NCBI RefSeq assembly: GCF_019075875.1
Contig: NZ_JAHOOZ010000001.1
Span: forward strand, 5,274,001-5,338,000
DNA from: Novosphingobium sp. G106
GTDB lineage: Bacteria > Pseudomonadota > Alphaproteobacteria > Sphingomonadales > Sphingomonadaceae
Direction of reading: 5' to 3'
DNA: 64,000 nt
Position 1 is the stretch's first letter, and each line of letters opens with the position of its first letter. This document shows, piece by piece, positions 35,995 through 55,090 of the stretch. The notes below the pieces were generated by a model. The model did not search any database. It was not told the origin of the DNA and was given only the letters and a program-made list of their open reading frames with translations. The position numbers and the translations under genes were made by a program.

Positions 35995-37338
35995 TCAAGC
36001 CACGATCTCTCCGATCGTCTTGTTGGTTTCCATGGATTTCGTGCCCCAGCGATCGACGGAAACGCCCATGATCTGCTGGCAGGTCAGGCCGACGCGGCTG
36101 ACTGGCGTACCCACGCCGTCGACGAAGAGTCCCGACTTCGCCCTGCCGCCGGCCGTGCCGGCCAGCATGATCGGGATGTTGTCGATCGTGTGGAACTTGG
36201 CGAATTCGGTTTCCGAATGCGCGAGGATCAGCGAGTTGTCGAGCAGGGTGCGGTCGCCTTCCTTCACCTTGTCCATCGCGCCAAGGAAATAGACCCAGGC
36301 CTCCATGATCTTGGTGAGGAAATACGTCGCGTTCGGCTGGTAGCCGAGGCGATTGTCCAGCACTTCCTCATGGGTGAGCTGGTGATGGGTGATCGTGCTG
36401 CCGATCCGTGTCAGCGACGAAGCGCCGTTGTTGAACATCATGTTGTAGACGCGGGTCTGGTCGCAGGCGAGCGCCATGACCAGGAGATCGGTCATGACCT
36501 CGTGATTCTTCATGACGTCCTCAATATCGCCGCTGACCTTGAGTTCGGGCGGCGCACCCTTGGGGACGACGCAGGCCTGCAACGGTTCCGGCTTGGTAAG
36601 CTCGACGTCGAGCTGGTTCTCGAGCTGGCGGATCGACGTGTAGTACTGGTCCAGCTTCTGCTTGTCTGCAGCGCCGACCGCGGCCTCTAGCGCCTTGCGC
36701 TGCTCGGTCACCGCCGAAAGCACGCTGCGCCGCGCCATCGCCGTCGGATCGGGAACGAAGGTCGCGCTGTTGGGATCCTTGAAGCCGGCCCCGAACAGGC
36801 GCTGGTAGAGCGCCACGACCGAGGTCTCCGCCGGGTTGAGGTTGCCGCCGCCGCGGCCGGAAATGGAGTTGCGGGGATCGCCGATCGCCGAAACGTCAAG
36901 CGAGCTGAAGCGGCTGCGCTTTCCGATTACGTCGCCGATCGTCACGTCGAGGCTCTCGCCCGGAAGCCCGCGCTCGGCCGTCAGCGCACGGCCGGTGCGA
37001 ATGGCCGGTCCGCCGGTCGCGTGGGGCAGGTTGGGCGCGCCGTCCAATGGCACGTTGAAGTTGCCCATGACGCTGATCCTGCTCTGGAACTCCTTGATCG
37101 GCTCGAGTTCCGGCTTGAGGTCGTAGTTCGCACCCGGCTTCGTGGGGAACCATCGGTTCGGGTTGACGCCAAGGCCCCAGAACCAGGTGCCGAAGCGTAC
37201 CGGAACCGGTGCGCCTGTCGCCGCCAGGGCCTGGCCGTTGCCGTCTAGGAAGGCGTCGAGCAGCGGCACACCCACCACCACGGCGGCGCCGTTCATCATG
37301 CCTTTCAGAGCGCTGCGGCGGCTGAGATCGTATGCCAT
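35995..37338 (-). CDS. DUF1552 domain protein, Tat-type export
   Basis: A 447-residue exported protein of family DUF1552. The N-terminus MAYDLSRRSALKGMMNGAAVV has the twin Arg of a Tat signal. The body holds FGTWFWGLGVNPNRWFP and the DUF1552 segments ATGGPAIRTGRALT, YYTSIRQLENQL and, near the end, LAHSETEFAKFHTIDNIPIM. DUF1552 proteins accompany DUF1592/1588 cytochrome-like partners in planctomycetes, myxobacteria and some sphingomonads; their reaction is unknown. It starts 21 bp after the DUF1592-type gene, so the two are one operon. Confidence 0.9.
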   Translation of the reverse strand: MAYDLSRRSALKGMMNGAAVVVGVPLLDAFLDGNGQALAATGAPVPVRFGTWFWGLGVNPNRWFPTKPGANYDLKPELEPIKEFQSRISVMGNFNVPLDGAPNLPHATGGPAIRTGRALTAERGLPGESLDVTIGDVIGKRSRFSSLDVSAIGDPRNSISGRGGGNLNPAETSVVALYQRLFGAGFKDPNSATFVPDPTAMARRSVLSAVTEQRKALEAAVGAADKQKLDQYYTSIRQLENQLDVELTKPEPLQACVVPKGAPPELKVSGDIEDVMKNHEVMTDLLVMALACDQTRVYNMMFNNGASSLTRIGSTITHHQLTHEEVLDNRLGYQPNATYFLTKIMEAWVYFLGAMDKVKEGDRTLLDNSLILAHSETEFAKFHTIDNIPIMLAGTAGGRAKSGLFVDGVGTPVSRVGLTCQQIMGVSVDRWGTKSMETNKTIGEIVA

Positions 37339-37359
37339 GGACCTATATTCCTTCTCGCT

Positions 37360-39057
37360 TTAGTTGCTCGCCATGCTGACGTGGGCTGGCGCGGCTTCCA
37401 GGGGCTTGCTGACGACGCGATAAGCCTCGGGCATCGTCGCGACCTGGAGGAACAGCGCGCGGATGTTGTAACCGGCGGCGCCAAAACGCTGATCCAGCGG
37501 CTCGACCAACGACGAAACGTCGTCGCTCGACCGGCCCGTGGCGTAAGATATCGCGCGCATCGCGACGCATTGCGTCGTGCTCGGGCTCTCGGCCATCGTC
37601 TTGCCCAGTCCGCTGGCGCCCAGGAACGTCGCGCCGTCCATCATTCCGGCCGTATCGATCGGCGCGTCGTTCTCGGTCTTGCGGAACATGCCGATGCCGT
37701 CGAAGCGTTCGAGCGACAGGCCGATCGGATCGGTAATCTTGTGGCAGCCAGAGCAGGACGGATCAGTTGCGTGCGCCATGAGCCGGATGCGTGCGGTCGG
37801 CTTGGCCTTGTTGGAGGTGTCCTGCACCGCGGTGAAGTTCACGTTCCCTGGCGGATTGGGGACCGGCTCGCACATGAGAAGCTCGCGAATGGCGCGGCCG
37901 CGCAAGGTCGGCGAACTGCGCCCGGCGTGCGAGTAGAGCGCCAGGAAGCCTGCCTGGCCGAGCAGTCCGGCGCGATCGTCGCCGGGTGCGAAGTCGTAGG
38001 GCTCCCAGCCGGCTGCCTGCTTGACCTGGGCCTGGTAGAGGCCGCCGAGCGATCGCGTCATGTAGGTGTGCGGGGTTGTGAAAAGCTGACGGTAGTCGCC
38101 GTTACGGGCTAGCAGGTGGCCGGTAATCGTTCGCAGCATCTGCTCGGGCAGTGCCTGCGCCACGTCCTGGTTGAAGTAGGGATAGATCAGCGGGTCTTTC
38201 GACAGCTCGTCGAACTTCTCGAACAGAAGCATGTCCGCGAAGAAGGCCCGCACGCCCTGTTCGAAGCGCGGCGACTTGACCATGCCGTCGGCGATCTCGT
38301 TGAGCCTGGCCGGGTCGGTGAGCGATCCGTCCTGGGCGGCCTTGAGCAACCGGTCGTTCGGCGTCGTGTTCCACAGGAGGAAGCTGAGGCGCGCGGCCCG
38401 CGAGTAGTTGTCCAGCCGCAGCCCGCCGGGATTGGCCGGGTCGGGCTCTGCCGTCTCGACTATGTAGAGGAACTGGGGCGACACGAGCATCGATGCCAGC
38501 GACAGTTCCAGCCCCTTGTAGAACGATTTGGTCGGCCCGGCGCCATCGCTTGCCAGCTTGACGTAGAACGCTTCTTCGACCCGCGAAAGCGGACGGCGAA
38601 ACAGGTAGCGGCCGAGCGGCGAGAGCACTTGCGCAGCGCAGGCCGGATCGGCCATCGCGGGATCCTTGGGAGTGCAGGACACGAACTGCGCGCGGCGTTG
38701 TTCGCCAAAGACCTGCGCGGCGACATTGCGACCGATCCCGTCGAACTGCTCGATCCCGGCGGGCGATATGCTCGCGTCGGCCGCGCCGTTGGCGATCAGC
38801 TCGTGCACGGGACGCACGATCGGCTCGACCTTGCCGGCTACGATCACGTCCGGCCCGAAAATGTCGGCGATCGTGTTGCGGTACTGGGCCTCGGTCATGC
38901 GCCGCATCGCCACGATCTTGGCGCTGGATAGGGCCAACGTCTGTGTCGGAGCGGTGTCGACGGCGGCGGATTTCGGCGCGTCGCCGGCGGCACAGCCGAC
39001 CAGAGCCAATGAGAGAGCGGCAACGCTGCCGAAAACGAGGCAGTTCAAACGGTTCAT
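37360..39057 (-). CDS. DUF1592-type (DUF1587/1592/1588/1585) haem-motif lipoprotein
   Basis: A 565-residue exported lipoprotein (MNRLNCLVFGSVAALSLALVGC). After the signal, MTEAQYRNTIADIFG is the DUF1587 opening; FRRPLSRVEEAFYV and RLSFLLWNTTPND belong to DUF1592; HAGRSSPTLRGRAIRELLMCEPVPNPP to DUF1588; SCSGCHKITDPIGLSLE gives a CxxCH haem-attachment motif (Cys435, Cys438, His439). The usual second CxxCH of the family is not seen at the N-terminus. An ATG at 39066 overlaps the previous stop (ATGA), but GAGAAG is better spaced for 39057. Likely periplasmic redox protein working with DUF1552. Confidence 0.88.
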   Translation of the reverse strand: MNRLNCLVFGSVAALSLALVGCAAGDAPKSAAVDTAPTQTLALSSAKIVAMRRMTEAQYRNTIADIFGPDVIVAGKVEPIVRPVHELIANGAADASISPAGIEQFDGIGRNVAAQVFGEQRRAQFVSCTPKDPAMADPACAAQVLSPLGRYLFRRPLSRVEEAFYVKLASDGAGPTKSFYKGLELSLASMLVSPQFLYIVETAEPDPANPGGLRLDNYSRAARLSFLLWNTTPNDRLLKAAQDGSLTDPARLNEIADGMVKSPRFEQGVRAFFADMLLFEKFDELSKDPLIYPYFNQDVAQALPEQMLRTITGHLLARNGDYRQLFTTPHTYMTRSLGGLYQAQVKQAAGWEPYDFAPGDDRAGLLGQAGFLALYSHAGRSSPTLRGRAIRELLMCEPVPNPPGNVNFTAVQDTSNKAKPTARIRLMAHATDPSCSGCHKITDPIGLSLERFDGIGMFRKTENDAPIDTAGMMDGATFLGASGLGKTMAESPSTTQCVAMRAISYATGRSSDDVSSLVEPLDQRFGAAGYNIRALFLQVATMPEAYRVVSKPLEAAPAHVSMASN

Positions 39058-39062
39058 CGGTG

Positions 39063-40280
39063 TCATCTTCTCGCAGCGGTCCGGGCGGCCGGAATGTCGT
39101 TGACGAAGGCGGGGATGGCGCTGAGCTGGAAGGCGCTGGATATGCCGTGACACTGGCCGGTCTTGGGGTCCTTGAGCCCGTCGGCCATCCTGCGTAGCGT
39201 CTTCATATAGGACGCACAGTCGATGCCGGCGACCAGCGCGGTGCCAGCACCGCCGAGCGCTTCGGCCTCGATGACGTCGAACAGCGGGCGATAGCCCCCG
39301 AGCATGCCGGTGACGCTGCCGTCCGACTGGAACTGTAGCCGAAGCCGGGCCTTGGCGAAGCGATACTGTCCGCGATTGCCACGGATATCCCGTGCTCCGC
39401 CCTGTCCCCAGGTCTGCGCGAGCGCTATGTCTCCCGGATCGGTGGTCAGCACGCCGTTGACGATACGAGCATGGAGCACGTTGCGGTGGCGCGGTTCGGT
39501 GTCGTCGATCGTGAAGGACGAGCCGCGCAGGAACTTGCCCTTGCTGTCCGCGGCAGGCCGATCCGCCGTGTTGGCGTAGATTACCTCGACGTCGTTGTCG
39601 TTCTGCAGGCTATCGACGCCGCGCAGCAGGATGACCTGGGTCCACTCACCGGAGCTGTGGAACTGCTTCATGCCGGTCTGGATGTCGTTGGAAATGCCGT
39701 CGACGCCCCGATATTCGAGCGTGCAGCCGAGCGCGCGATACTCCTGATTGTCGATGCCCTTCTCGCCGTTGGGCGTGACGAAGTCCTCATGATCGCAGGT
39801 GTCGGCTTTGGACCCGCCGTCGAGGTCGAGGCCCCACGACATCTTGCTCTGCACCGTGGGTGTGAGTGGGTGATCGAACATGTCCGGTTGCGAGCAGATG
39901 TTCGTGCCGTTGGGGCCGAAGGCGTAGGCGTGCCAGCGCTGGGTCAGTTCCTGCTCGTTCTCCTTGAGCGCAAGCCGCTGGCGTTCTGCCGGGGCCTGCG
40001 TATTCAGGTAAACGTCGCGCAGGCGCGGGGCCGGGCCGGTGGGGCAGGCGTCCTTGCCCATGACCACGGGAGGGTAGAACCCCTCGACGACGAAGCCCAT
40101 GACCCCGTCTGCCGGCGGTGAGGGCAATCGCATCGGTCGAGGCGCGGCGGATGCCGGCGCCTGTTGCAGTTCGGGCGCGCCCACGCCGAACGCGAACGCG
40201 CCTGCCACCGCGGCAGCGAGTAGCCCGTTGCGGATCGTGCGGTGCTTCATCCCTCTGGACAATTCGGCTGACGATTCCAT
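39063..40280 (-). CDS. Uncharacterised secreted protein of the DUF1552/1592 operon
   Basis: A 405-residue protein with an N-terminal export segment after MKHRTIRNGLLAAAVAGAFAFGVGA. Its core has GLDLDGGSKADTCDHEDFVTPNGEKGIDNQ, a pattern rich in Asp, Asn and Gly like calcium-binding loops, with Cys residues that could pair, and DDTEPRHRNVLHARIVNG. I recognise similar modules only in uncharacterised myxobacterial-type proteins. AGGGGAG precedes ATG 40280; an ATG at 40313 overlaps the preceding stop. It overlaps the DUF1592-type gene by ATGA, so it is part of that operon. Confidence 0.7.
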   Translation of the reverse strand: MESSAELSRGMKHRTIRNGLLAAAVAGAFAFGVGAPELQQAPASAAPRPMRLPSPPADGVMGFVVEGFYPPVVMGKDACPTGPAPRLRDVYLNTQAPAERQRLALKENEQELTQRWHAYAFGPNGTNICSQPDMFDHPLTPTVQSKMSWGLDLDGGSKADTCDHEDFVTPNGEKGIDNQEYRALGCTLEYRGVDGISNDIQTGMKQFHSSGEWTQVILLRGVDSLQNDNDVEVIYANTADRPAADSKGKFLRGSSFTIDDTEPRHRNVLHARIVNGVLTTDPGDIALAQTWGQGGARDIRGNRGQYRFAKARLRLQFQSDGSVTGMLGGYRPLFDVIEAEALGGAGTALVAGIDCASYMKTLRRMADGLKDPKTGQCHGISSAFQLSAIPAFVNDIPAARTAARR

Positions 40281-40309
40281 GCTCGTCTCCCCTGGTTCGT
40301 GCCCTGTCG

Positions 40310-41159
40310 TCATGGCCTGAGGACCGCTGCGCCTGTCGGCATGTCGGTCACGTCCGGCCCTTGTGCGACGAAGACGGACTTGCCGCGGTAAAGCCATTGC
40401 GGCGCATCGGCCTGACGGTCGATGGTCCAGTCGCCTACGCCCGCACTGCCGAGCGCGCCCGGGAAAGGCCGCCAGCTTGCGCAATCGTCGGCGCAACTGC
40501 CCGTGTACAGCAGCCGGCCTTCCTTCTGGACGAAGGCATAGGCTCCGCCCACGAAGGCGGCCGACACGTTCACCGGCGCGGCGACCTTGGGGACCGGGGG
40601 GCACGTATTTCAGGCTGTTCCAGACCTTGTCGTTCGCACCGTCATATGCGGCTGCTCCCGGCGCCTCGCCCTTGCGGACGAAAACCATATGCCAGCCCTT
40701 GTAGACCCATTGCGGTCCCTGAGGCCCGTCGATGATCGTCCAGTCCGGCGCCTTCTGGTTCTGGATCATGGCGCTCGACGGTGCTGCCGGCGCCGCGCCG
40801 CCCGCTGCAATCGCCCCTGCCGTTGCGGCCGCCAGGCGATTGCGATCGCCGAACCCTTGGGGGAACATGATGTTGGCTTTCGAGCCCGGCGGGGCGAGCA
40901 GGGGCTGCCACGCCTCGGTGCAGGCAGCCTGGCAATATTTCGAGGTATCGGCAACGGCGCGCAGCAGTGTGCGCATGTCCATGCCGTAGAGTGTGCGGCC
41001 ATCGGCGTCGGTGTAGACCTGTATGTTGCCTACGGTGCCCACCTTGACGCCCGGCGGATAGTCGCTGGTCGTCGCAGCGGGGATCGGCAGGTCGGCCGGC
41101 TGCGCATGCGCTGCCGTGCCCGAAAGCAGAATTGCCGCGATCGCAAAACCCAATCGCAT
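40310..41159 (-). CDS. COG4315-like secreted repeat protein, frameshifted
   Basis: An exported protein of about 280 residues when repaired. The signal is MRLGFAIAAILLSGTAAHA, with AGGAGGGCG upstream. It holds copies of the secreted-repeat module (PF03640): VYTDADGRTLYGMD with CTEAWQPLLAP and DWTII...WVYKGWHMVFV, then AYAFVQKEGRLLYTG with CASWRPFPGALG and WLYRGKSVFVAQG. The second half is in another frame; deleting one G from the run of six at 40596-40601 restores YVPPVPKVAAPVNVSAAF and one open frame to the TGA at 40310. The stop overlaps an upstream ATG of the next gene. First gene of the envelope operon. Confidence 0.75.
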
Positions 41160-41257
41160 TTGTTTCGCCCTCCTGGCGCAAGGTCTCGAAAGCCTTGCGT
41201 CTCTCCCGAAAGCGGTTGCCTGCAGCGCATGCGACCGCCTCATGAGGGCATTTATAA

Positions 41258-41286
41258 TTCAAAATTTTAATCAGTCAACTTTTGAA
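41258..41286. promoter_or_regulatory. AT-rich operator before the envelope operon
   Basis: TTCAAAATTTTAA (41258-41270) and an inverted half TTTTGAA (41280-41286) lie about 100 bp before the secreted-repeat gene and 40 bp after the end of the marR gene. The same 13-mer occurs before the TonB receptor (45461-45473). Confidence 0.6.
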
Positions 41287-41326
41287 TCATATTGACGATA
41301 GCTTGACGACGCAGGTCGAGGGCGCG

Positions 41327-41842
41327 TCAGGTCGAGCGAAGGGCGGTCTGCATATCGGAGAGGATTCGCGCGCAAATTCGCAGTTCCTTGGGCTTGTAGT
41401 GGCCCAGTGCTTCCGTCACCAATCCGACAAGCCCATTGCGGACTTCCTGCAGCGTCTCTTCGCCGAGAGGCGTCAGCGCGAGCTTGCTGCGGCGACGGTC
41501 GCGCTCGCCCTGCTCGCTCACGATAAGTCCTGCGGCACTGAGCTTGCCCAGCTCGAACGACACGAGGCTGCGGCCGATGTTCAGGGTCTCCGCAAGCTCG
41601 TGCGGATGATTGAGCCCGATTGCGATCAGGTTGATCACCCAGGTGCCGCGCGGGCCCAGGTCGTAGCGATCGGTAACCGCACCGGTAGCCAGGCTGAGGG
41701 GGCCGGAAGCAAACGCCATGTTGTGAGCCAGGAACGCGATGTCGCCCCAGGTCAGAGGTGAGTTGTCGAGCTTGCCGGTGCGTAAATTCTCGATCCGCGC
41801 CATCAGGCGGTCGCGGGCATCCTTGGATTCTGTTGTTCCCAC
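41327..41842 (-). CDS. MarR family transcriptional regulator
   Basis: A 171-residue winged-helix regulator. LGPRGTWVINLIAIGLNHPHELAETLNIGRSLVSFELGKLSAAGLI is the HTH and ERDRRRSKLALTPLG the wing, followed by a helical dimer domain. A GTG at 41842, 10 bp after the HiPIP stop, gives the best length; ATG 41803 is an alternative. Such proteins often sense aromatic acids or oxidants. The gene lies just upstream of the envelope operon and near copies of an AT-rich palindromic motif, the kind MarR dimers bind, so it is the likely local regulator. Confidence 0.88.
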   Translation of the reverse strand: MGTTESKDARDRLMARIENLRTGKLDNSPLTWGDIAFLAHNMAFASGPLSLATGAVTDRYDLGPRGTWVINLIAIGLNHPHELAETLNIGRSLVSFELGKLSAAGLIVSEQGERDRRRSKLALTPLGEETLQEVRNGLVGLVTEALGHYKPKELRICARILSDMQTALRST

Positions 41843-41852
41843 AGGTCTTTCG

Positions 41853-42155
41853 CTATTTACGGTGCGGCGCGAACGAAGAGCAGACAGCTCCTGCGTTGAC
41901 CGGCCCATTGAGTAGTTGGCAGGCGCCGCATCCCGGCTGCCCTGCTGTGAAGAATGTGCAGACCGAGCAATGCTTGGCCTGATCGCTCGATGCCTCGGCA
42001 TATCCCAGCGAACGCCGCCGGCTCTTCTGGCTGAGAGGCAAGGTCGCCGGATCGTAGCAGGCGGCATTTTGTGCCCGCGCGCCGCCGATACCAATCACGG
42101 CGGACAATACGCCCACTGCGGCCGACGTCAGTATGCGGCGACGATCAACCTTCAT
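41853..42155 (-). CDS. High-potential iron-sulfur protein (HiPIP) family
   Basis: A 100-residue exported protein. MKVDRRRILTSAAVGVLSAV resembles a Tat signal (DRRRIL). The mature part has Cys63-x2-Cys66, Cys79 and Cys92 (KHCSVCTFFTAG, CGACQLL, AVCSSF), the four ligands of a [4Fe-4S] HiPIP cluster, which carries single electrons in the periplasm. AAGGAG lies 8 bases before the ATG. Together with the cytochrome c-prime gene (100 bp upstream) and the CxxCH-bearing DUF1592-type protein it gives the cluster a periplasmic redox character. Confidence 0.85.
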   Translation of the reverse strand: MKVDRRRILTSAAVGVLSAVIGIGGARAQNAACYDPATLPLSQKSRRRSLGYAEASSDQAKHCSVCTFFTAGQPGCGACQLLNGPVNAGAVCSSFAPHRK

Positions 42156-42255
42156 GATGCTCCTTCGCCGGCCTGCCGGCCTTCCATAACGGCGCTAGGC
42201 CGCATCGACAACTTGGCAATCGCGCGACGCCGGGTGGGGTGCGCCGGCAGCGTTG

Positions 42256-42717
42256 CTAGGGCTTGGGTTGACGGAACTGGTCATGGCAGCCCTTGCAGGC
42301 GCCGCCGAGATTGCGTGCGGCGGCACGGATCGCGGCGACATCGCCGCCATTGGCCGCGTTCTGGAATGCGGCGGCCTGCGCCGAGAAGTCGTCCTGGGCT
42401 CGGCGGAACCCGGCCGCGTTCGTCCATATCTCAGGCTTTGCGGCAGTCTTTATGCCCGGCTGCGGCCCGGTGCCGGCGGGGAACCAGCCGTACATGGCCT
42501 GGGCAGCACCCCGGATCTGGCGGGCGGATATCTGGATCAGCATGGTTTGCGGCGTCGATGAGCGCAGGCCGTCGTTCACCGCCTTGAATGCCGCGCCCAG
42601 CTCGCGCAAGCCATCGACGCGCGTGCGAACCTGGTCGGCCGGCGCGGCGAGCAATGGCGCGGCAATTCCCGCCAGCACGAGCGATGCGAGGATTCGGGAA
42701 CGTCGCGAAGACGGCAT
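42256..42717 (-). CDS. Cytochrome c-prime family protein
   Basis: A 153-residue exported class II cytochrome c. A signal peptide (ILASLVLAGIAAPLLAA) precedes a four-helix bundle with the haem site near the C-terminus: ACKGCHDQF (Cys141, Cys144, His145), as expected for c-prime. AAGGAG stands directly before ATG 42717, so the earlier ATG (42732) is rejected. Relatives bind NO or move electrons in the periplasm. It sits between the TonB receptor and the HiPIP gene, same strand. Confidence 0.88.
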   Translation of the reverse strand: MPSSRRSRILASLVLAGIAAPLLAAPADQVRTRVDGLRELGAAFKAVNDGLRSSTPQTMLIQISARQIRGAAQAMYGWFPAGTGPQPGIKTAAKPEIWTNAAGFRRAQDDFSAQAAAFQNAANGGDVAAIRAAARNLGGACKGCHDQFRQPKP

Positions 42718-42855
42718 GGTCAACTCCTTCACGTGCCTTCCGCTGCCGGCGCGGAGCGGCGATGGCTAGGGTAACAAAACTACGCGCCGCGAGGGTCGGG
42801 CCGCAAGAGCCGAACCGCTGGCTCCTGCGCCCGGCCCGCTTGCAGCGCTTGCATA

Positions 42856-45285
42856 TCAACGTGAGCCAAAGGCGACCCTGAGATTGATGCCGAACTCGCG
42901 CGGCTCGTTCACGGAAATGCCGATATAGGGGCTGAGGACCGGCGAGGCTCGCCCGCCTACGGGCAGTCCCGAGAAACTCGTCGACTGGGGCGCGCTGTTG
43001 CGCGTGAGCACGACCAGCTTGTTGAAAAGGTTCTTGCCGTAGAGCGTAAGTTCCCAGTCACCGCTGCGCGACCGCAGCCCGAGGTAGCCGTTCAGCAAGC
43101 CATAGGAACCGATGTCGTCGAACGGGTTGTTAGGATCGTTGGCGGTCTTGCCGTTCCAGGAGAACAGCCCGCGGGCGAAAGCCTCGGAGCCGCCAGCGAA
43201 GTCGAGCGACAGCGTGTAATCGAAATGGGCGACGCCGCTCCATACCGGCGAGAACGAAGAACGCGGGCTTCCCGTGCAGATCGCCAGATGGTTGATGGCA
43301 TAATTGGGGATCGCCTGGAGCTGAGCCACCGTCGGCGGTGCTGCAAGCTGATCGGGCACGCCGTCGCCGTTGAGATCATTGCACGGCAGCACGCCATTGC
43401 GGATCTTGCCCAGCGCATAGTTGAGCGTGCCGCCGATGTTGAAGTGCGGTGTCGCCTGGAAAGATGCCTCCGCCTCGACACCCCGGGCGCGCACCTTGGT
43501 TTCAGCGACGAAGTTGAACGCGGTCCCGCCCGAGGCCACGCTCGCGATCGGCGCGGCCGGATTCGCGGGGTTCTGCGCGAAGGAGAGATAGTAGATCGTC
43601 GAGTTGGGATGGAACGGATAGTTGTTGAAGTCCTGCTGGTAAGCAGAGACGTTGAGACGCGCCCGGTGATCGAGGAAATCCGCCTTGAAGCCGATTTCGA
43701 AGGATTTCGAGGTCTCCGGAGACTGATGCGTGAAATCGGTCTCACGCTGCGACTGGTTTACGCTGAAATCGCCGACCGCGACCGAGCCCGGCCGCCACGA
43801 TGTGCCGAAGCTGGCATAGGCCATGAGGTTCTGGTTGAACCTGTGCTTGAGCGAGACGCTGTAGATCCAGTGTTCGAACGAGTCCGGCGGCGGGTTCGCG
43901 GCGGGACTGGCCACTCCGTTGATCGTCAGCACCTGAACCATGTCGTAGCTGATATGCCGCGCGCCCCCCGAGATTTCGGTGTTCTCGCCCAGATGCGCGG
44001 TCAGGTTGGCGAAGTAGCTTTTCTCCAGGGTGGCCGACCCTTGGCGGATCTGGGTCTGGATCAGGCGGAAAGACGGCGCGGTGACGATCGTGTTGTTGGT
44101 CAACGTGGTCCCGCTGCCGTTGGCCGGCATTGAATCGAGCTTGTTGTAGAAATAGCCGGCCACGTAGTCGAACATGTCGGCGATGCGATCCTCGTTCTGC
44201 AGGCGGATTTCGTGGCTGCGGCTGGTCGACAGCGACAGGGTGTCGCCACGGATCACCTGTGTCGGGAAGATGTTCGCCGCATCGGAATCGGCTCCCTTCG
44301 ACAGGGTGGACGAGTCGGTCTTGGAGCCGACATAGATCAACCGTTGTCCGGCATAGCGCAGCTGCGCCTGCCAGTTCCAGATCTTGAACTGCTGGTGGTT
44401 TTGCGTGGGGGATTTCGCGTAGGCCAGCCTGTCGCTCGGATCGATATGCACTGCGCCATCGGCGGAGCCCGGAACCACGTTGGCGAACGATTCAACCTGG
44501 CCGAACTGCTGCGTCCGGCGGTCGGTGGACTGATAGCTGCCCGACATCGACAGAAAGTCGAATGGTTCGAAACGGACGGCCGCGCGACCCGACAGGGTAT
44601 GGTCATAAGGGTTGAGCGAGCTGAGCAGGCTGCGCACGCGGTTGCCCTGGTTCTCCTCTATCACGCCGGCCAGGCGGATCGCGAGCTTGTCGGCGATGAT
44701 CGGGACGTTGAGCGCGCCGTTATAGTTCCAGCCGTGAATGTCGTTGACGGTCGCATTCGAATATCCGCCCGCCTCGTCTAGGTCGGGCCGATGCGTCGTG
44801 ATCGTGATCGACCCCGAGGGAGATGCCCGGCCGCGCAGAGTTCCCTGGGGCCCCCGCAGAACCTCGATCTGGCCGATGTCGTACATCGAGTTGAAGATTG
44901 TGCCCGAGGATATCGGAGCGTCGTTGAAATAGTATTCGATCGTGCCGCTGTTGCCGCTCACGTTGACGTCGAAATTGACGCCGCGGACCGAGGATACGGT
45001 GCCTATGCCATTGGTGTTGTTCCGCATCTGCAGGCCCGGGACGACCTGTTGGATATCCTCGAACTTGCGCAGGTTGAGCTTGGCGATCGAGTCCGCAGTC
45101 ACCGCGTTCACCACGATCGGGACGTCCTGCAGCACTTCGTCGCGGCGACGGGCCGACACGATGATCGCCGGATCGTCGGCGGTGGTCTGGGCTGGATCGT
45201 CGGTCGCCGCGCTTTGCCCGAAGGCGGATTGCGCGAAAGCGAGTGAGCTCGCGCCGACCAGCGCGAACATGCGGAATGTTTTCAT
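42856..45285 (-). CDS. TonB-dependent receptor
   Basis: An 809-residue outer-membrane receptor: signal peptide MKTFRMFALVGASSLAFAQS, TonB-box-like IIVSARRRDEVLQDVP, plug motifs LRKFEDIQQVVPGLQMRNN and GPQGTLRGRASPSGSI, and a barrel ending EFGINLRVAFGSR. GAGGAGGGGG is a very strong ribosome site. It belongs to the sphingomonad group used for large organic ligands. It is the uptake component of the cluster and has two copies of the AT-rich operator about 155-190 bp before its start. Confidence 0.95.
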   Translation of the reverse strand: MKTFRMFALVGASSLAFAQSAFGQSAATDDPAQTTADDPAIIVSARRRDEVLQDVPIVVNAVTADSIAKLNLRKFEDIQQVVPGLQMRNNTNGIGTVSSVRGVNFDVNVSGNSGTIEYYFNDAPISSGTIFNSMYDIGQIEVLRGPQGTLRGRASPSGSITITTHRPDLDEAGGYSNATVNDIHGWNYNGALNVPIIADKLAIRLAGVIEENQGNRVRSLLSSLNPYDHTLSGRAAVRFEPFDFLSMSGSYQSTDRRTQQFGQVESFANVVPGSADGAVHIDPSDRLAYAKSPTQNHQQFKIWNWQAQLRYAGQRLIYVGSKTDSSTLSKGADSDAANIFPTQVIRGDTLSLSTSRSHEIRLQNEDRIADMFDYVAGYFYNKLDSMPANGSGTTLTNNTIVTAPSFRLIQTQIRQGSATLEKSYFANLTAHLGENTEISGGARHISYDMVQVLTINGVASPAANPPPDSFEHWIYSVSLKHRFNQNLMAYASFGTSWRPGSVAVGDFSVNQSQRETDFTHQSPETSKSFEIGFKADFLDHRARLNVSAYQQDFNNYPFHPNSTIYYLSFAQNPANPAAPIASVASGGTAFNFVAETKVRARGVEAEASFQATPHFNIGGTLNYALGKIRNGVLPCNDLNGDGVPDQLAAPPTVAQLQAIPNYAINHLAICTGSPRSSFSPVWSGVAHFDYTLSLDFAGGSEAFARGLFSWNGKTANDPNNPFDDIGSYGLLNGYLGLRSRSGDWELTLYGKNLFNKLVVLTRNSAPQSTSFSGLPVGGRASPVLSPYIGISVNEPREFGINLRVAFGSR

Positions 45286-45438
45286 GTTTTCCCCCTCCTC
45301 AGGTCGGCGTGCCGCGGCGGTTCGCCGTCGACCTTCTCCCGACTATCGATTGTTTATTGCCCGCCTCCTCGCGTGCCCTGCCGTGGAAAGTGCGTGTTCA
45401 GACTGAATGAAACCCTTGCGGTGCGTCAAGCAAAAAGG

Positions 45439-45473
45439 TTCAAGATTTTAAACATATGGGTTCAAAATTTTAA
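45439..45473. promoter_or_regulatory. Paired AT-rich operator sites
   Basis: TTCAAGATTTTAA (45439-45451) and TTCAAAATTTTAA (45461-45473) are direct repeats 22 bp apart, two turns of the helix, in the divergent gap between the TonB receptor and the TPR gene. The second is identical to the site at 41258-41270. Confidence 0.65.
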
Positions 45474-45595
45474 TTACTATGGCTAGCGTGCGGCATGCTT
45501 TGCGCGTCGTACGCCCTTTGCCGACATCGCTCGCTTCGCAAACCGCGTCGAACCGTGGCAGAATGCAGGGCCCGATCCGGCGGAGACGCGCGAGC

Positions 45596-46282
45596 ATGAT
45601 AGGGCTGGTGCCAGTCGCGATCGTCTTGTCCTTTTCGGCGGCGGCAAGCGCACCGATCGTTCCTGCCCCGGGGCGGGTGGAATGTGCCGACCCGCGGGCC
45701 GCCGCGCACTACGATCGCGGTCTCGACCTCTACCGCAACGGGCAGTTTGCGCTCGCGATCCTCGCGTATGATACTGCGCTTCGGTTGCGCCCCGACTTCG
45801 CCGAGGCCTATCAGAACCGTGGGGCGGCCCATGACGCCGACGGCCAGCCAAAGCGGGCCCTGGAGGACTATGACCACGCGCTGCGGCTGACGCCCGACTG
45901 GCCCGAGTGGCTGTATGACCGCGGGCTCGCCTGGCGTCACGCCGGCGAACACGATCGCGCACTCGCCGACTTCCGGCGCGCGCTCGAACTCAGGCCCGGT
46001 TTCGTCGCCGCACTCCTTGAACAGGGGATCGTGCGGTACGAACGGCGCGATTTTGCGGGGGCGATTGTGGACTATTCAGCGGCGATCGCGCTGCAGCCAG
46101 GCCTTGCCGAAGCCTTCAACAACCGCGCGCTCGCCTATCTGAAGCTCGGCCGTTACGACCTCGCCCAGCCGGATTTCGATCGCACGATCCGGCTGCACCA
46201 GTATTACGGCAACGCGCTCATCAACCGTAGCCTCGGCGCCATGACGGCGCCGCCGCTGGCCTGCGCCGCGCCCGTTCCATAG
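45596..46282 (+). CDS. Exported TPR-repeat protein
   Basis: A 228-residue protein with an N-terminal signal or anchor (MIGLVPVAIVLSFSAAAS) and about five tetratricopeptide repeats: AHYDRGLDLYRNGQFALAILAYDTAL, then AYQNRGAAHDADGQ, LYDRGLAWRHAGEHD, LEQGIVRYERRDF and FNNRALAYLKLGRYD. TPR arrays bind partner proteins. ATG 45596 is chosen because the hydrophobic segment follows directly and GGAG lies 10 bases upstream; earlier ATGs exist at 45479 and 45563. It is divergent from the TonB receptor and shares its operator region. Confidence 0.8.
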   Translation: MIGLVPVAIVLSFSAAASAPIVPAPGRVECADPRAAAHYDRGLDLYRNGQFALAILAYDTALRLRPDFAEAYQNRGAAHDADGQPKRALEDYDHALRLTPDWPEWLYDRGLAWRHAGEHDRALADFRRALELRPGFVAALLEQGIVRYERRDFAGAIVDYSAAIALQPGLAEAFNNRALAYLKLGRYDLAQPDFDRTIRLHQYYGNALINRSLGAMTAPPLACAAPVP

Positions 46283-46289
46283 CCGGCGC

Positions 46290-47804
46290 CTAGGGGGCGG
46301 TGTCGTAGTTGATTGCGGCGATGTCGAGAATCTCCTGCCGATCTTCGCGCACGATGTGGCCGGCGCCGATCGCGGCATCGAGCGCGGCGGTGAAGCGCTT
46401 GAGATAGTCGTCCTTGCCGCCCGGATAGAGTTTGGCGAGTTCGGCTTTGGTCATCGGCGCACCGCTGCCGCCGAGCATGCCGATGAACGAGTTGGGATCA
46501 CCCTTGCCCGAGAGTCGGATCGTGGGCACGTCGACCCACGGGGTCCGCACGCCGCCGCGTGCCAGACCGTTCGCGTCGAGTGACAGCGTCGCGGTTTCGC
46601 CGGCTTTGCCGCCGCTCTCCAGCTCGAGCCGGGGCGTGCTCGCCGGAGCCCGGCCGCTGCTCACCCAGCCGCCGAGCGCGGCGATCGCCGCCTCCACCAC
46701 GTAGTGATGCGGCATCCCCGGGTTGAGCGGCACGGAGAGCTTGCCCATCATGGAATCGGTCGTCGGCACGAAGGCCTTGGCAAGCGCCGCGATTGGCGCA
46801 TGTCCCGAATCGATGAAAGCACCCCCGAACAGGTAGTTGTCGGCGTGTGACGTTCCGGCGACTTCCCATACGCGCAGCTTCGCATTGTCCGGCTGGCGCG
46901 CGGCGTGATAGCCGGGCAGCCGCGCGCCGAGCAGGTCGGTCTCGGTGATGAGCGTCAGCAGCGGCACGCGCAGGTCGGTGCGGAAGCGGAGATCGTTGGG
47001 CACCGAGGTCGGCGCGCCGGCCACGCGCGTACCGTCGATCGCCGCGCCGCTGCCGAAGCGCGAATGGATGAAGAAGCCGTCGTAGGCGCGCGCCAGCGGA
47101 TCGATGGCGTTGACGTAGGTGACGAGGAAGGCTGCCGACTGCGATTCGCCGATGCCGATGACATGGCGGGGCGCGAGCGGTCCGAGCAGGCCGCTGGCTT
47201 TGGGCGCCTTGAGCAGCGCTCCTACCTGCGAGAAGAGATCATACGAATAGGCGTCGCCCGGGTGCGACAGCTTGCCGTAGCGTGCGGGATCGACCTTCTT
47301 GAGCGGGGTGCCCTGGCCCATGATCGAATTGCCGCCTTCGACACCGACCTGTTGGGCCGAGACGCCGACATAGGCATAGCCGCGGCGAAGCATCTCGCGG
47401 TGGGCAACCATATAGTCGGCAGGGGTATCCTGACCGGCGGTGACGTTGAACCATTCGACCAGCACCGTGCCGTTGAACTTGGCCGGATCGCTGGGCCGCA
47501 GCACGACGACGCGCGTGGTGTAGGGCGCGGTCGCCGCAGCCTGCGCGCGCCACATGCCGTCTGACGTCGGCGGGCCGGGAAGGCGATAGGAGGTCGCCGT
47601 GCCGGACACGAAGTATTCGTCCATCTGATAGCCGAGCGTAGCGAGATCGTAGGAGCCGAACAGCAAGGTCGGCTTGCCGGGGACCGCGGTAACCTCGGCC
47701 TTGGCCGGGCCGGCCGCGGCGGGGACGGTTGCGGTCATCAGCAGCAGGCCGCCGAGTGCGGCGTGCATCGCTGCGGCAAGGCCGCCTTTTCTCGAACGGG
47801 GCAT
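46290..47804 (-). CDS. Secreted alpha/beta hydrolase-domain protein (PF20091-like)
   Basis: A 504-residue exported protein (signal MPRSRKGGLAAAMHAALGGLL...AAG). The nucleophile elbow is HVIGIGESQSAAFL, and VVVLRPSDPAKFNGTVLVEWFNVTAG and MVAHREMLRRGYAYVGVSAQ are typical of this large alpha/beta hydrolase family, usually annotated without function. The Ser in GESQS is the likely nucleophile. A second, diverged family member lies immediately upstream, so they may act on the same imported ester or lactone. The stop is 8 bp from the stop of the convergent TPR gene. Confidence 0.85.
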   Translation of the reverse strand: MPRSRKGGLAAAMHAALGGLLLMTATVPAAAGPAKAEVTAVPGKPTLLFGSYDLATLGYQMDEYFVSGTATSYRLPGPPTSDGMWRAQAAATAPYTTRVVVLRPSDPAKFNGTVLVEWFNVTAGQDTPADYMVAHREMLRRGYAYVGVSAQQVGVEGGNSIMGQGTPLKKVDPARYGKLSHPGDAYSYDLFSQVGALLKAPKASGLLGPLAPRHVIGIGESQSAAFLVTYVNAIDPLARAYDGFFIHSRFGSGAAIDGTRVAGAPTSVPNDLRFRTDLRVPLLTLITETDLLGARLPGYHAARQPDNAKLRVWEVAGTSHADNYLFGGAFIDSGHAPIAALAKAFVPTTDSMMGKLSVPLNPGMPHHYVVEAAIAALGGWVSSGRAPASTPRLELESGGKAGETATLSLDANGLARGGVRTPWVDVPTIRLSGKGDPNSFIGMLGGSGAPMTKAELAKLYPGGKDDYLKRFTAALDAAIGAGHIVREDRQEILDIAAINYDTAP

Positions 47805-47901
47805 ATCGTCTCCTCCCAGTGTATTGGCTGCGGACGCGCGCGGCGCCTTCTTCTCGAGATCGTGTGTTGGTGCGGCCTGCGCATTTTGTGTTTCCAGGCA
47901 G

Positions 47902-49344
47902 CTAGAAGCGCTGCGCCTCGGCTTCTTTGCGGCTGTCGGCGCTATCTTCGCGCAGGATCCAGCCTTGCGCGATCAGTTCTTCGAGCCTGGCATCGAACCG
48001 GCGGACATAGTTGGCCGGGGTGCCGTACAAGGTCCGCATTCGCTCCGGCGGGAAGGGCTTCTCGACACCCACGACGCCGCGCTTTGGCGTGCCGTCGGGA
48101 TTGATCGGATTCGCGTAGTAGGTTGAATGCGGCACGTCGATCTGCGGCGAGCGGATACCGCCGCGGGTGTTACCGTTCTCGTCCTTGGCGAGGTAGCGCC
48201 CGTCTGGCGCCAGCTCCAGCCGCGGCGCGCGTGGCGGTGCGACCCCCTTGTCCACCCATTGCACGAGGTGATGGACACCCATGCTGAACTGCTCGTCGTG
48301 CGGCATGCTGTTCATGATCACGCCCTGGGTTTCGCCGAGTACGGCCGCCCAGGTCGCCGGATCGTTGTGCGGCGCGTAACGCGTGCCCATATGGCCGGTT
48401 CCTGCCAGCTCATAGAGGCGGTAACGGTCGCCGGGCGCGTCGCTGTCCGGTCGCCGATAGCGACGGCCAACCAGGTCGGGGCCGCGCGAGTTGGCGTCCG
48501 AAACGTCTCCGTCGCTGACCATCTGGATCAGCGGTACGTCACGCGGCCCGAACGGCGCGCGCGGGAATCCCGAAGGAAAATAGCCGTCGTAGATGGGCTT
48601 GCCGCCGGGCAGGCGCTGGCGGTCATGGACGCCGAGGACATAGTTGGTGACGACAGACCCCGTCTGCGAATGGCCCATCAGGAGCACGTGTCGGACCCCA
48701 TAGCCGCGGAAGGGTCCATCCGCGGCACGCAGCGCGGCGCCTGCCTGGGCCAGGATGGCGTTGGAGGCCTGATTCATGCCGGCCTGGTAGGCGGCCATGG
48801 CCGCGGCATCGGTGGGCGCCGGCCGCTGCGCGGGCGTACCCGGCGCGGCCGCGATCCGCAGCGAGGAATAGTAGGCCGGATCCTTGGGGACGACATAGGT
48901 CTCGATCGGCAGCTTCTGCGAACCGATCATCGCCCAGCCGTGGCCGGAGCGGACGACGTAGGGCGAGGTGTACATCATCATCGGCGGCACGCCCAAGGCA
49001 TGCAGCGGTTCTGCCAGGATGACCCCGCTGAACCGCGCCGGGTTGCGTGGCCGCCAGATGTAGACCTGCGTATTGTAGGCCTGGCCGATGTCGTCCGTAC
49101 CGCTGACGAACCATTCCTCCTCGACGTAGCCGGCCTGCGCGGCATGGCTGCGATAGATCGAATTCGGGACATAGGGTGCGGGCACCTTGGGCGATGCTGC
49201 CCGATTCCAGCGTGCGGCCTCGACCGTTCGTCGTGTCCTGGCCGCCTCGACCCCGGCGGTGACTTCCGCCGCCATCAGGCTACCGAACGGCAGTGCTGCC
49301 GCGCCGCCGACCAAGCCGGCGAGCGCATCCCTGCGCGTGGTCAT
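47902..49344 (-). CDS. Secreted alpha/beta hydrolase-domain protein (PF20091-like), second copy
   Basis: A 480-residue exported paralogue of the 46290-47804 protein. MTTRRDALAGLVGGAAALPFG is a Tat-like signal with twin Arg. The elbow HVLLMGHSQTGSVV gives the nucleophile Ser; VYIWRPRNPARFSGVILAEPLHALG matches the neighbour's early segment. GGAGAGG lies before ATG 49344. The C-terminal third (YLAKDENGNTRGGIRSPQIDVP) corresponds to the same part of the neighbour, so the pair arose by duplication, an old one judging by divergence. Confidence 0.85.
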   Translation of the reverse strand: MTTRRDALAGLVGGAAALPFGSLMAAEVTAGVEAARTRRTVEAARWNRAASPKVPAPYVPNSIYRSHAAQAGYVEEEWFVSGTDDIGQAYNTQVYIWRPRNPARFSGVILAEPLHALGVPPMMMYTSPYVVRSGHGWAMIGSQKLPIETYVVPKDPAYYSSLRIAAAPGTPAQRPAPTDAAAMAAYQAGMNQASNAILAQAGAALRAADGPFRGYGVRHVLLMGHSQTGSVVTNYVLGVHDRQRLPGGKPIYDGYFPSGFPRAPFGPRDVPLIQMVSDGDVSDANSRGPDLVGRRYRRPDSDAPGDRYRLYELAGTGHMGTRYAPHNDPATWAAVLGETQGVIMNSMPHDEQFSMGVHHLVQWVDKGVAPPRAPRLELAPDGRYLAKDENGNTRGGIRSPQIDVPHSTYYANPINPDGTPKRGVVGVEKPFPPERMRTLYGTPANYVRRFDARLEELIAQGWILREDSADSRKEAEAQRF

Positions 49345-49392
49345 CTCTACCTCTCCTCTCAGCGTCGCCAGCTTCACTTGCCGGCTGATCGA

Positions 49393-49731
49393 TCACGGCT
49401 TTGGCGGAAGCTTCGACAGGTCCCAGTCGATCTTGCCGAGCGTTTCGTCGGTCAGCTGGTCGCCGGCATAGCTCTGCACCTGCTTGAGCGTGATGCTGCG
49501 TGCCATCGCGATCTGCGGGTTGTTCGCTATCGCCGGTACGTACTTCAGCAGTATCGCTTTCGCGGCGGGGTCATCGAGCAAGGTCCCGATCGGTGTTTGC
49601 GCGGTCGAATAGGGCTGGGGTGCGGTGACCGCCTTGGTGGCCGGCGACGCATCCTGTGCCTCGGCCGCAGACCCCATGGGCAGGCTCGTGCCGGCCATCC
49701 AAAGCGCGATGAACGCTGCTCTTCCAATCAT
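49393..49731 (-). CDS. Small secreted protein of the hydrolase cluster
   Basis: A 112-residue exported protein (MIGRAAFIALWMAGTSLPMGSAAEAQ). The mature part contains TPIGTLLDDPAAKAILLKYVPAIANNP and LSKLPPK at the end. GGGAAGAG lies before the ATG. I do not recognise a named family; similar short periplasmic proteins appear near PF20091 hydrolases in my general knowledge. It is the first gene of the leftward hydrolase set; a TTGATTTAAATTGA stretch about 55 bp upstream is AT-rich like the operator sites. Confidence 0.7.
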   Translation of the reverse strand: MIGRAAFIALWMAGTSLPMGSAAEAQDASPATKAVTAPQPYSTAQTPIGTLLDDPAAKAILLKYVPAIANNPQIAMARSITLKQVQSYAGDQLTDETLGKIDWDLSKLPPKP

Positions 49732-51984: not shown

Positions 51985-52860
51985 CTACTTTGTGAACAGA
52001 GGTCGCGTCTGGCGAAAGGCCCATCGCAGTGTGCCGGCGAGGCCGTACGCCGCGGTTCGTACAATCGGTCCGGAGAGCGGCGGAAGGAATAGACGGTGCA
52101 TGTCCTTGGCCCAGCGCGGCAGGACGTCGACCGATGCCTGCATGAGCATTGCTTGCACGGGGGCCATGGCGCGTGACGGCGCCGGCTGGCCCAACACCAT
52201 CCGCGCCACCTCGCGGGTCCGGGCAGTCGCAATGAGTTCCGGACGGAACGCCGCGATCAGCGCTGTCGCCTCGGCGCGGGTGTCAGGCACGGGATCGGCA
52301 CCAAGCACGCGCGCGACCTCGCCGGCCTGGGCGAAATAGGTGTCCTGGTCGGCGAGCGACATGCCCGGCTCGCCGAAGGCGATCCAGGCGTCGAGGAAGC
52401 CGATCGCCTCGCAGGTATGGACCCAGGCGAGCAGGTGCGGATCGCTCGCGGCATAGGGCGTGCCGTCGTCAAGCACGCCGCGTACATGCTCGTGGACCTG
52501 GCGCACGCGTTCGATCGCAGCCTCGGCTTCGTTCCGTTCGCCGAAAGTGGTGACCGCGATAAAACGCGCGGTGCGGCGCAGGCGGCCGAGCATGTCGTTA
52601 CGGAAGGCGCTGTGATCCCACACCCCAGCCAGTGCTGCCGGATGGAGCATCTGCAGGAGCAGCGCGGTGACGCCGCCGATCATCATGGTGGTGACATCGC
52701 CGTGGACACGCCAGATCACCGAGTCTGGCGGATAGAGCGCCTGGGCGGAGCGGACCACGGGGCGTTCGCCACGCGCACGGTCGTTGAACACGGCCTGGAC
52801 CCGTCGGACCAGCAGCCGCTGCAGGGGATTGCCGGAAGGGTGGGCGGCGGTTTCAGGCAT
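51985..52860 (-). CDS. DUF2236 (MpaB/rubber-oxygenase-like) family protein
   Basis: A 291-residue protein of the DUF2236 oxygenase family (MpaB and latex-clearing-protein relatives, b-type haem). It shows SVIWRVHGDVTTMMIGGVTALLLQMLHPAALAGVWDHSAFR, the typical HPxxxAGVxxHS segment with the proposed haem His, then VRQVHEHVRGVL and LLAWVHTCEAIGF. The substrate is unknown. The ATG at 52860 overlaps the previous gene by 8 bases, so it is the last gene of the DUF4166 operon. Confidence 0.88.
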   Translation of the reverse strand: MPETAAHPSGNPLQRLLVRRVQAVFNDRARGERPVVRSAQALYPPDSVIWRVHGDVTTMMIGGVTALLLQMLHPAALAGVWDHSAFRNDMLGRLRRTARFIAVTTFGERNEAEAAIERVRQVHEHVRGVLDDGTPYAASDPHLLAWVHTCEAIGFLDAWIAFGEPGMSLADQDTYFAQAGEVARVLGADPVPDTRAEATALIAAFRPELIATARTREVARMVLGQPAPSRAMAPVQAMLMQASVDVLPRWAKDMHRLFLPPLSGPIVRTAAYGLAGTLRWAFRQTRPLFTK

Positions 52861-54361: not shown

Positions 54362-55071
54362 GGCAGAAGCTCCCTTATGGCCTCGGGGCCGAGCCTGGCC
54401 GGCACCTCGGGCTGGTCGCGGAAATGGCCGACCTGGCGGACGAGTTCGCCGAGCAGCCGGTGGCGCAGCGCAAGCGTGAAGGCAAAGCTGCCTCCGCCCA
54501 GGTCCTCGTGATCGATCGTCAGCGCGCCGGGGGCGAGCCAGGGCGGCAGGCGCAGGCGCCAGATGCCCAGCCGGAGAAAATAGTGATCGCTGACGAAGCG
54601 GATGCCGTACGCGCTTGCCTCGACCCGCAGCGCGATGCCGAAACCCATGCCGAGATACTCCTCCAGCCCGGTGGGGCCTGCGAAGCGCTTGGCGCTGTGG
54701 ATCACTTGCGGGAAGCCGCTGGGGCGGGCGTACATTCGTGTCCAGACCTGGCCACCTGCAGCACCGTCTTCGGTGACGGTGACGACCGCGGCGACGCCTG
54801 CATCGCGGCCGAGCGGCAACGGCGCGCCGATCAGCCGGCAGGCCTGTGCGAGCGCCCAGCCCGCGACGTGCATCCGGCAGGTCTCCACCTGTCCGGCGTA
54901 GGTGACCGAACGGCCCGGTAACAGCCGTTTGGCGAAACGCGCCCGCACCGCCGCAGGCAATCCCGCCCATGCTTCTGCGCCGAGCAGTGCACGGAAACGC
55001 ATGTCGGGAAGCGTCTCGTCGACGGGTGCGGTGCTTGCCGCCGCCTCGTACCGCATCGCTGCCTGTGCCAT
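54358..55071 (-). CDS. DUF4166 domain protein
   Basis: A 237-residue protein of family DUF4166, which is often fused to or adjacent to TIGR01777 epimerases. It has FRALLGAEAWAGLPAAVRARF near the start, a CRMHVAGWALAQACRLIGAPLPL stretch, and FPQVIHSAKRFAGPTGLEEYLG in the middle. Known members have no assigned activity. GGAGA precedes ATG 55071. It is the first gene of an operon with the epimerase fusion and DUF2236, behind an inverted repeat at 55091-55118. Confidence 0.85.
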   Translation of the reverse strand: MAQAAMRYEAAASTAPVDETLPDMRFRALLGAEAWAGLPAAVRARFAKRLLPGRSVTYAGQVETCRMHVAGWALAQACRLIGAPLPLGRDAGVAAVVTVTEDGAAGGQVWTRMYARPSGFPQVIHSAKRFAGPTGLEEYLGMGFGIALRVEASAYGIRFVSDHYFLRLGIWRLRLPPWLAPGALTIDHEDLGGGSFAFTLALRHRLLGELVRQVGHFRDQPEVPARLGPEAIRELLP

Positions 55072-55090
55072 TACCAATCTCCAATATATT

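Follow-up and report, generated by a model that had tools for sequence, protein, structure and literature searches.

A compact, patchily distributed block of exported redox proteins in sphingomonads and its possible role in the oxidation of polycyclic plant compounds

A 64,000-nucleotide stretch of the 7.23-Mb genome of Novosphingobium sp. G106 (hereafter the window; G000:C1:5274001-5338000) carries a block of genes organized around three loci, encoding a DUF1552 protein, a DUF1592-type c-heme protein, and an exported-looking protein of 395-405 residues that we refer to as unk380. We found that the block around this trio (unk380-DUF1592-DUF1552) is kept together in sphingomonads, with cytochrome c' as its usual companion and a variable complement of COG4315-like, HiPIP, cytochrome b561, secreted VOC, MarR and TonB receptor loci. 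This redox module is a genuine and compact unit with a patchy distribution, is in some cases carried on plasmids, and features an altered branch of DUF1552 together with a partner family that has no entry in Pfam or NCBIfam. A preliminary description of the locus had united these genes with a TPR gene, two alpha/beta hydrolases and a small protein in a 14-kb system, whereas the real unit extends from DUF1552 to cytochrome c' (35995-42717), sometimes together with the TonB receptor (to 45285; Table 1). We tentatively propose, as a reading that is quite possible though short of probable, that the module performs a conserved periplasmic, cytochrome-linked oxidation of polycyclic plant compounds, for which steroidal saponins in Sphingobium are the best supported substrate class.

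Four DUF1552 loci were identified in the source genome, and tblastn searches with the window genes revealed that each of the three other places also possesses DUF1592, unk380, COG4315-like, HiPIP (48-62%) and cytochrome c' loci. The C-terminal part of the COG4315-like gene was detected at all three of these places and its N-terminal part at two, MarR was found at two, and a full-length relative of the TonB receptor (45%) at one, with partial matches only at the rest. We next consider a set of 36 loci, comprising the window, the three own-genome places (via DUF1552) and 32 loci found via unk380, in which DUF1552 was present at 33 and DUF1592 at 34, the misses corresponding to loci cut by contig ends (both proteins in L018 and L030, DUF1552 in L012). 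Among the companions, cytochrome c' was found at 26 of these loci, COG4315 at 25, the secreted VOC protein at 24, HiPIP at 18 and MarR at 13 (window included), while a TonB receptor sharing 36% identity or more with that of the window was present at 8 of the 35 other module loci. Conversely, the TPR, hydrolase and small-protein genes (45479-49731) had no counterpart at 41 loci (35 module loci and six canonical, or class A, loci described below), bar a 52-residue hydrolase piece in L005. The 14-kb cluster thus holds together as one system in its core, and the alpha/beta hydrolases, originally regarded as parts of it, can be set aside.

Sequence distances among DUF1552 proteins were mirrored by those of DUF1592 (Mantel r 0.96, 32 loci), unk380 (0.97, 31 loci) and COG4315 (0.94, 22 loci), and also by those of cytochrome c' (0.87, 23 loci) and VOC (0.61, 21 loci), values reached by none of 1000 permutations. 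Because co-inherited neighbour genes would agree too, the agreement establishes that these genes travel together, not that they function together. Co-occurrence in related genomes, which the preliminary description had expected, was borne out for the core. Across 119 Novosphingobium genomes, unk380 was identified in 18, DUF1552 in 47 and PSD4 (DUF1592) in 46, and the DUF1552 matches were divided by score into 32 canonical loci (327-354 bits) and 30 of the window's kind, the latter consisting of 28 loci at 153-184 bits and two broken, lower-scoring ones (a match in G552, at 21.5 bits and below cut-off, was excluded). An unk380 locus was found within 5 kb of DUF1552 at 27 of the 30 window-kind loci compared to 0 of the 32 canonical loci; the three window-kind loci without a nearby unk380 belong to assemblies of 240 and 400 contigs, and unk380 and window-kind DUF1552 occur in the same 18 genomes. 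Also, a search of 397 genomes of the family with unk380 alone yielded 15 matching genomes, a lower bound, from 10 of 96 genera. From 15 unk380 matches outside the source genome (G000) and G117, we analysed 14 as an independent set, leaving out a partial match (G823 C228), and found the trio complete, with DUF1592 and DUF1552 beside unk380, at all 14 loci; cytochrome c' was present at 11 of these, cytochrome b561 at nine, COG4315 at seven, HiPIP at six, TonB at five, VOC at three and MarR at two. The canonical DUF1592-DUF1552 pair, on the other hand, is followed by an ankyrin-repeat protein in each of the six loci read (L078-L083).

Closer examination of the individual proteins confirmed most of the gene assignments given earlier, with Pfam recovering the DUF1552, DUF1592-type, TonB, cytochrome c', TPR and two Abhydrolase_10 proteins in place. 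In the window's branch of DUF1552 the namesake HXXSHH motif is replaced by HxxTH(E/Q)E in 32 of 32 copies, plus 13 of 13 readable copies in the independent set, and SHH is kept in all six canonical copies examined; on the strength of this motif, the window's DUF1552 is assigned to a divergent branch and not to the canonical family. All five of the PSD3, PSD5, PSD4, PSCyt3 and PSD2 domains of the window's DUF1592 protein exceed their Pfam cut-offs, PSD3 barely (23.6 vs 23), and PSD4 (PF07631) and PSCyt3 (PF07627) with 93 and 94.8 bits, respectively. A single CxxCH was found in 33 of 33 DUF1592 proteins of this branch, as well as in 25 of 25 class B copies of cytochrome c' counted, and no carbohydrate-binding module (CBM) family matched the window's DUF1592 protein in Pfam at E<=0.001. 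The protein unk380, previously noted as a Ca-loop-like unknown, has no match in Pfam or NCBIfam; 670 relatives were detected at E<=0.001 among 8000 candidates scored, and an AlphaFold2 model predicts a beta-barrel-like core (pLDDT 84.7, pTM 0.81). Variants of unk380 include two genes in tandem within one module copy (L060; G589:C2:111610-113972) and a long form of 551 residues (L068:9529-11184) with an N-terminal stretch weakly resembling type VI secretion Hcp (18.3 bits, cut-off 23.5).

The remaining labels hold in part. Genes are present where HiPIP and MarR had been called, but both window copies score below their cut-offs (Table 1); for HiPIP, the L005 paralogue passes (PF01355, 23.9 bits). 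Similarly, the N-terminal part of the COG4315-like window gene matches no Pfam family, whereas its equivalents at L007 and L062 match PF03640 with 80.7 and 103.6 bits, and the L005 copy reaches 21.9 bits against NCBIfam NF040526 (SCO0930), below the cut-off of 275. The two parts share one frame in nine of nine named relatives but change frame in the window copy, which is either broken or affected by a sequencing error at a C run. Export was called by eye, from a Tat-like RR or a hydrophobic start.

A possible role of the module was suggested by its context in Sphingobium plasmids. Searching an annotated plasmid collection with unk380 returned 13 records, 12 of which derive from Sphingobium, and the same 12 Sphingobium records possess DUF1552 of the window branch. 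Eleven are named TomTYG or TomMM, and S. herbicidovorans MH accounts for the remaining one; passages of the saponin study PMC10653915 describe TomTYG65, TomTYG72, TomTYG74 and TomMM15 as isolates from tomatine-treated soils, and report that S. herbicidovorans MH, the host of one of these module plasmids, breaks down alpha-tomatine. The best unk380 match lies at most 4 kb from DUF1552 in 11 of the 12 records, and a glycoside hydrolase (GH) gene of family GH106 is located 16.9-18.3 kb from DUF1552 in all 12. In total, 47 plasmid records match this GH106 gene, 14 of them at 60% identity or more, including the 12 module records; the remaining two (Sphingomonas parapaucimobilis and Novosphingobium sp. 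P6W) have no module on the same record. In TomTYG73, where the module is organized as unk380-DUF1592-DUF1552-cytochrome c'-cytochrome b561, the hydrolase genes follow the order GH3, GH106, alpha/beta hydrolase, GH78. As their families and gene order agree with the locus numbers in PMC10653915, these GH genes probably represent SpGH3-1, SpGH106-1 and SpGH78-1, which the same passages place among six steroidal-saponin hydrolases. Furthermore, 20-kb stretches of L108, L111 and L113 comprise SpGH78-like (78%) and SpGH3-like (53%, 49%) genes. On the far side of the S. herbicidovorans locus, we identified genes resembling those for steroid-ring degradation, with a KshA_C match (196.5 bits, cut-off 23.3), together with HsaC (269 bits) and HsaA (398 bits) matches that both fall below a cut-off of 450. 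Both TomTYG73 and S. herbicidovorans also have efflux-type genes in the vicinity of the module.

Neighbours of other copies are more diverse. Of 50 module loci, 10 gave matches to glycosidase queries, including the four (L015, L064, L067 and L068) from which queries were taken; none of six canonical loci did, but so small a control carries little weight. Rieske genes were found near the module at seven of the 50 loci, LLM genes at five, and P450 and SodC genes at four each (query-source loci included), and L013 has a sulfotransferase-type gene; because of these neighbours, steroids are probably not the sole substrate of the module. L013, L017 and L027, at about 1-8 kb of each, were also observed to possess near the module F420-biosynthesis-like genes (CofC by Pfam in L017; CofD, CofE and FbiC-like by eye) together with an LLM-type enzyme. 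With Rieske- and F420-type pathways flanking the same module in Novosphingobium, the Sphingobium context does not fix the substrate of the window copy. Within the source genome, a second copy (L005:1-5486) adjoins hexuronate-catabolism-like genes (Mannitol_dh by Pfam, others by eye), and the nearest known GH106 gene lies 29 kb from this copy, not from that of the window. A fatty-acid-hydroxylase-type protein is encoded near the module at four of the 50 loci (L005:15308-16072, PF04116; L014, L016 and L064).

In the proposed pathway, the TonB receptor would take a polycyclic compound, bulky and in many cases bearing sugars, into the periplasm, where exported glycosidases would remove sugars if present and the DUF1592 c-heme protein and Tat-exported DUF1552 would oxidise the hydrophobic part. 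The HxxTH(E/Q)E motif of DUF1552 could form a two-His/one-carboxylate metal site, unk380 may serve as a binding or presenting partner, and cytochrome c', HiPIP and cytochrome b561 would carry electrons between heme and membrane. Electrons might flow either way, from a dehydrogenase feeding the quinone pool or through quinol-fed activation of oxygen, and SodC at four loci would fit O2 chemistry. The product would subsequently pass into cytoplasmic steroid- or aromatic-ring catabolism. Tomatidine has an m/z of about 416. With the m/z 410 and 408 obtained from S. herbicidovorans MH, whose gene set excludes 3KS-delta4-dehydrogenase (PMC10653915), at least one dehydrogenation would seem to be unassigned. 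Periplasmic redox chemistry on a bulky hydrophobic substrate, as envisaged in the preliminary description, is plausible given the Sphingobium saponin context and the TonB receptors of the window's subfamily at 8 of 35 loci. A more specific version, in which unk380-DUF1592-DUF1552 is a new periplasmic cytochrome-coupled oxidase or oxygenase, comprising a c-heme subunit and a two-His/one-carboxylate metal subunit and oxidising saponin aglycones before cell entry, is conceivable but on the whole doubtful.

A number of observations weigh against an oxidation module for polycyclic plant compounds. The role of the core proteins is read from gene context; neither DUF1552 nor unk380 has a relative in the PDB at E<=1, and the single match of DUF1592 at that threshold (E 0.62) is a designed protein. 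The Sphingobium records are near-identical at the module locus and represent perhaps three lineages, and the trio is not strict among them: in TomTYG65 (L115, AP027331.1:528000-543000) the DUF1592- and DUF1552-sized genes and cytochrome b561 come straight after an AraC-type gene and the only unk380 match is about 200 kb off, while in S. herbicidovorans unk380 is split over two annotated genes. The main text of PMC10653915 makes no mention of TonB or cytochromes. Across the Novosphingobium genomes, with p-values uncorrected for kinship or number of tests, the link is moderate: GH106 (15/18 module carriers vs 46/101 others, p=0.004), GH39 (8/18 vs 17/101, p=0.023) and KshA above 140 bits (9/18 vs 23/101, p=0.023) are enriched among carriers, but no association was found for any KshA match (10/18 vs 46/101, p=0.45) or for GH43 (12/18 vs 64/101, p=1). 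Similarly, tblastn with KshA_Sp detected no match at the 50 module loci, the source genome has no GH39 or GH43 match, and no GH was found among the flanking genes of the window tested, a subset of all.

Among the alternatives, the module might be the sphingomonad counterpart of the Cbp2D-type redox system, acting on plant polysaccharide or oligomers as electron source or direct oxidant. Such a role is suggested by Cbp2D itself, which combines DUF1587 with c-heme domains and is important on cellulose, by the carbohydrate-binding modules that PSCyt genes also encode in Verrucomicrobia (passages of PMC5615132), by the glycosidase matches at ten module loci, and by the hexuronate-type genes beside the second own-genome copy. 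We nevertheless consider it unlikely, given that the window's DUF1592 protein is without a carbohydrate-binding family, that GH43, a general hemicellulase family, is unassociated with the module, that GH43 and GH39 are both unmatched in the source genome, and that Rieske, LLM, P450 and KshA-like genes are among the neighbours. A protective rather than catabolic function, with exported hemes, HiPIP and cytochrome c' shielding the envelope from membrane-active plant compounds, nitric oxide or superoxide, is less likely again. Cytochrome c' proteins bind nitric oxide, and the SodC genes at four loci, the efflux-type genes of the two Sphingobium plasmids and the MATE gene beside the window copy are consistent with defence; however, at some loci Rieske, LLM, SDR and dienelactone-hydrolase-type genes form co-directional runs with the module, which speaks against this function, and a distribution as patchy as this one (at least 15 of 397 genomes of the family) would be more expected of a catabolic niche than of general defence. 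It is very improbable that the module is a heme or iron uptake system with the cytochromes as bystanders: the best NCBIfam match of the TonB receptor is a hemin receptor, but a weak one (61.7 bits, cut-off 316.85), receptors of its subfamily occur at only 8 of 35 other loci, and an ABC ATPase-like gene (by eye) is present at only 3 of 36. Finally, a chance neighbourhood of independent genes, to which the non-recurring hydrolases, TPR and small protein and the TomTYG65 plasmid without an adjacent unk380 might point, is rejected for the core as almost inconceivable by its presence at four places in one genome and by the counts of 27/30 vs 0/32 and 14/14.

Coordinates of the module and adjoining genes in the window are summarized in Table 1; named relatives of the window genes are mostly from Novosphingobium. 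For the Abhydrolase_10 pair, solved structures yielded no match by sequence at E<=0.1. Flanking genes encode a P450, two further TonB receptors, an acyl-CoA dehydrogenase and a 2-oxoacid dehydrogenase set, and a MATE gene adjoins the module. Also observed at 51985-55084 was a protein with an MPAB/Lcp-type catalytic domain (rubber-oxygenase superfamily), overlapping an epimerase/DUF1731 frame.

Table 1. Genes of the module and adjoining loci, in window positions.
Feature	Position	Strand	Observations
DUF1552 protein (PF07586)	35995..37338	-	Pfam 172.8 bits (cut-off 30); Tat-like start by eye; motif HQLTHEE replaces HXXSHH
DUF1592-type c-heme protein	37360..39057	-	PSD3-PSD5-PSD4-PSCyt3-PSD2, one CxxCH; lipobox-like start by eye (window copy)
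unk380, exported-looking	39063..40280	-	Start at 40250 or 40280; no Pfam or NCBIfam model; lies within the 39063-41243 frame
COG4315-like secreted-repeat protein	40310..41159	-	Frame change at C run near 40.6 kb
MarR-type regulator	41327..41803	-	Pfam 24.1 bits, cut-off 27
HiPIP-like Fe-S protein	41853..42155	-	Pfam 19.7 bits, cut-off 22; Tat-like start by eye
Cytochrome c'	42256..42717	-	PF01322, 87 bits
TonB-dependent receptor	42856..45285	-	Pfam plug and barrel
TPR gene	within 45479-49731	+	Pfam TPR
Two neighbouring Abhydrolase_10 hydrolases	46290-49377		Pfam
Small protein	within 45479-49731		

In the open-access literature, which misses most subscription journals, we found no description of the module and no paper treating DUF1552 together with DUF1592. 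Related systems have nonetheless been reported. In Verrucomicrobia, passages of PMC5615132 describe proteins that combine PSCyt3 and PSD domains in one chain, are usually encoded beside a gene of one unknown family, and belong to a group of PSCyt genes about whose functions nothing is known; we infer the neighbouring family, which the section does not name, to be DUF1552. The window module differs in its single c-heme, its variant DUF1552, and its escort of unk380 and cytochrome c', often with COG4315, HiPIP or b561. The canonical pair of Novosphingobium likewise has adjacent DUF1592 and DUF1552 loci, with cytochrome c' and b561 nearby in four of six loci, but is distinguished by two CxxCH motifs in five of six, SHH in six of six, the ankyrin-repeat partner in six of six, and no unk380 within 5 kb at any of 32 loci. 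In the Cbp2D/Cbp2E system of Cellvibrio japonicus, according to passages of PMC8981238 and PMC12542752, Cbp2D is also a redox protein that is exported, contains DUF1587 as well as CxxCH domains, and is tied to the attack on recalcitrant plant material; it matters for growth on insoluble cellulose, its substrate, and has been hypothesised to do more than transfer electrons. Cbp2D bears CBM2, YceI-like X158 and X183, whereas the window's DUF1592 protein has no CBM and one CxxCH in place of two c-heme domains; by analogy, Cbp2D offers the best outside hint that such proteins may attack resistant plant matter. Also related are the saponin genes of Sphingobium sp. RC1 and related isolates, a set comprising glycosidases, 3beta-HSDs, ketosteroid dehydrogenases and other steroid-pathway orthologues in the parts of PMC10653915 concerned, which do not name the module; in the 12 Sphingobium plasmid records the module lies near such genes. 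Here the DUF1592-DUF1552 pair is compact, located near genes like characterised tomatine hydrolases, and present in cultivable soil bacteria, making it amenable to deletion tests with a known substrate. If the proposed role is correct, a periplasmic oxidation step would be added to bacterial saponin breakdown, and a widespread protein pair would gain a function.

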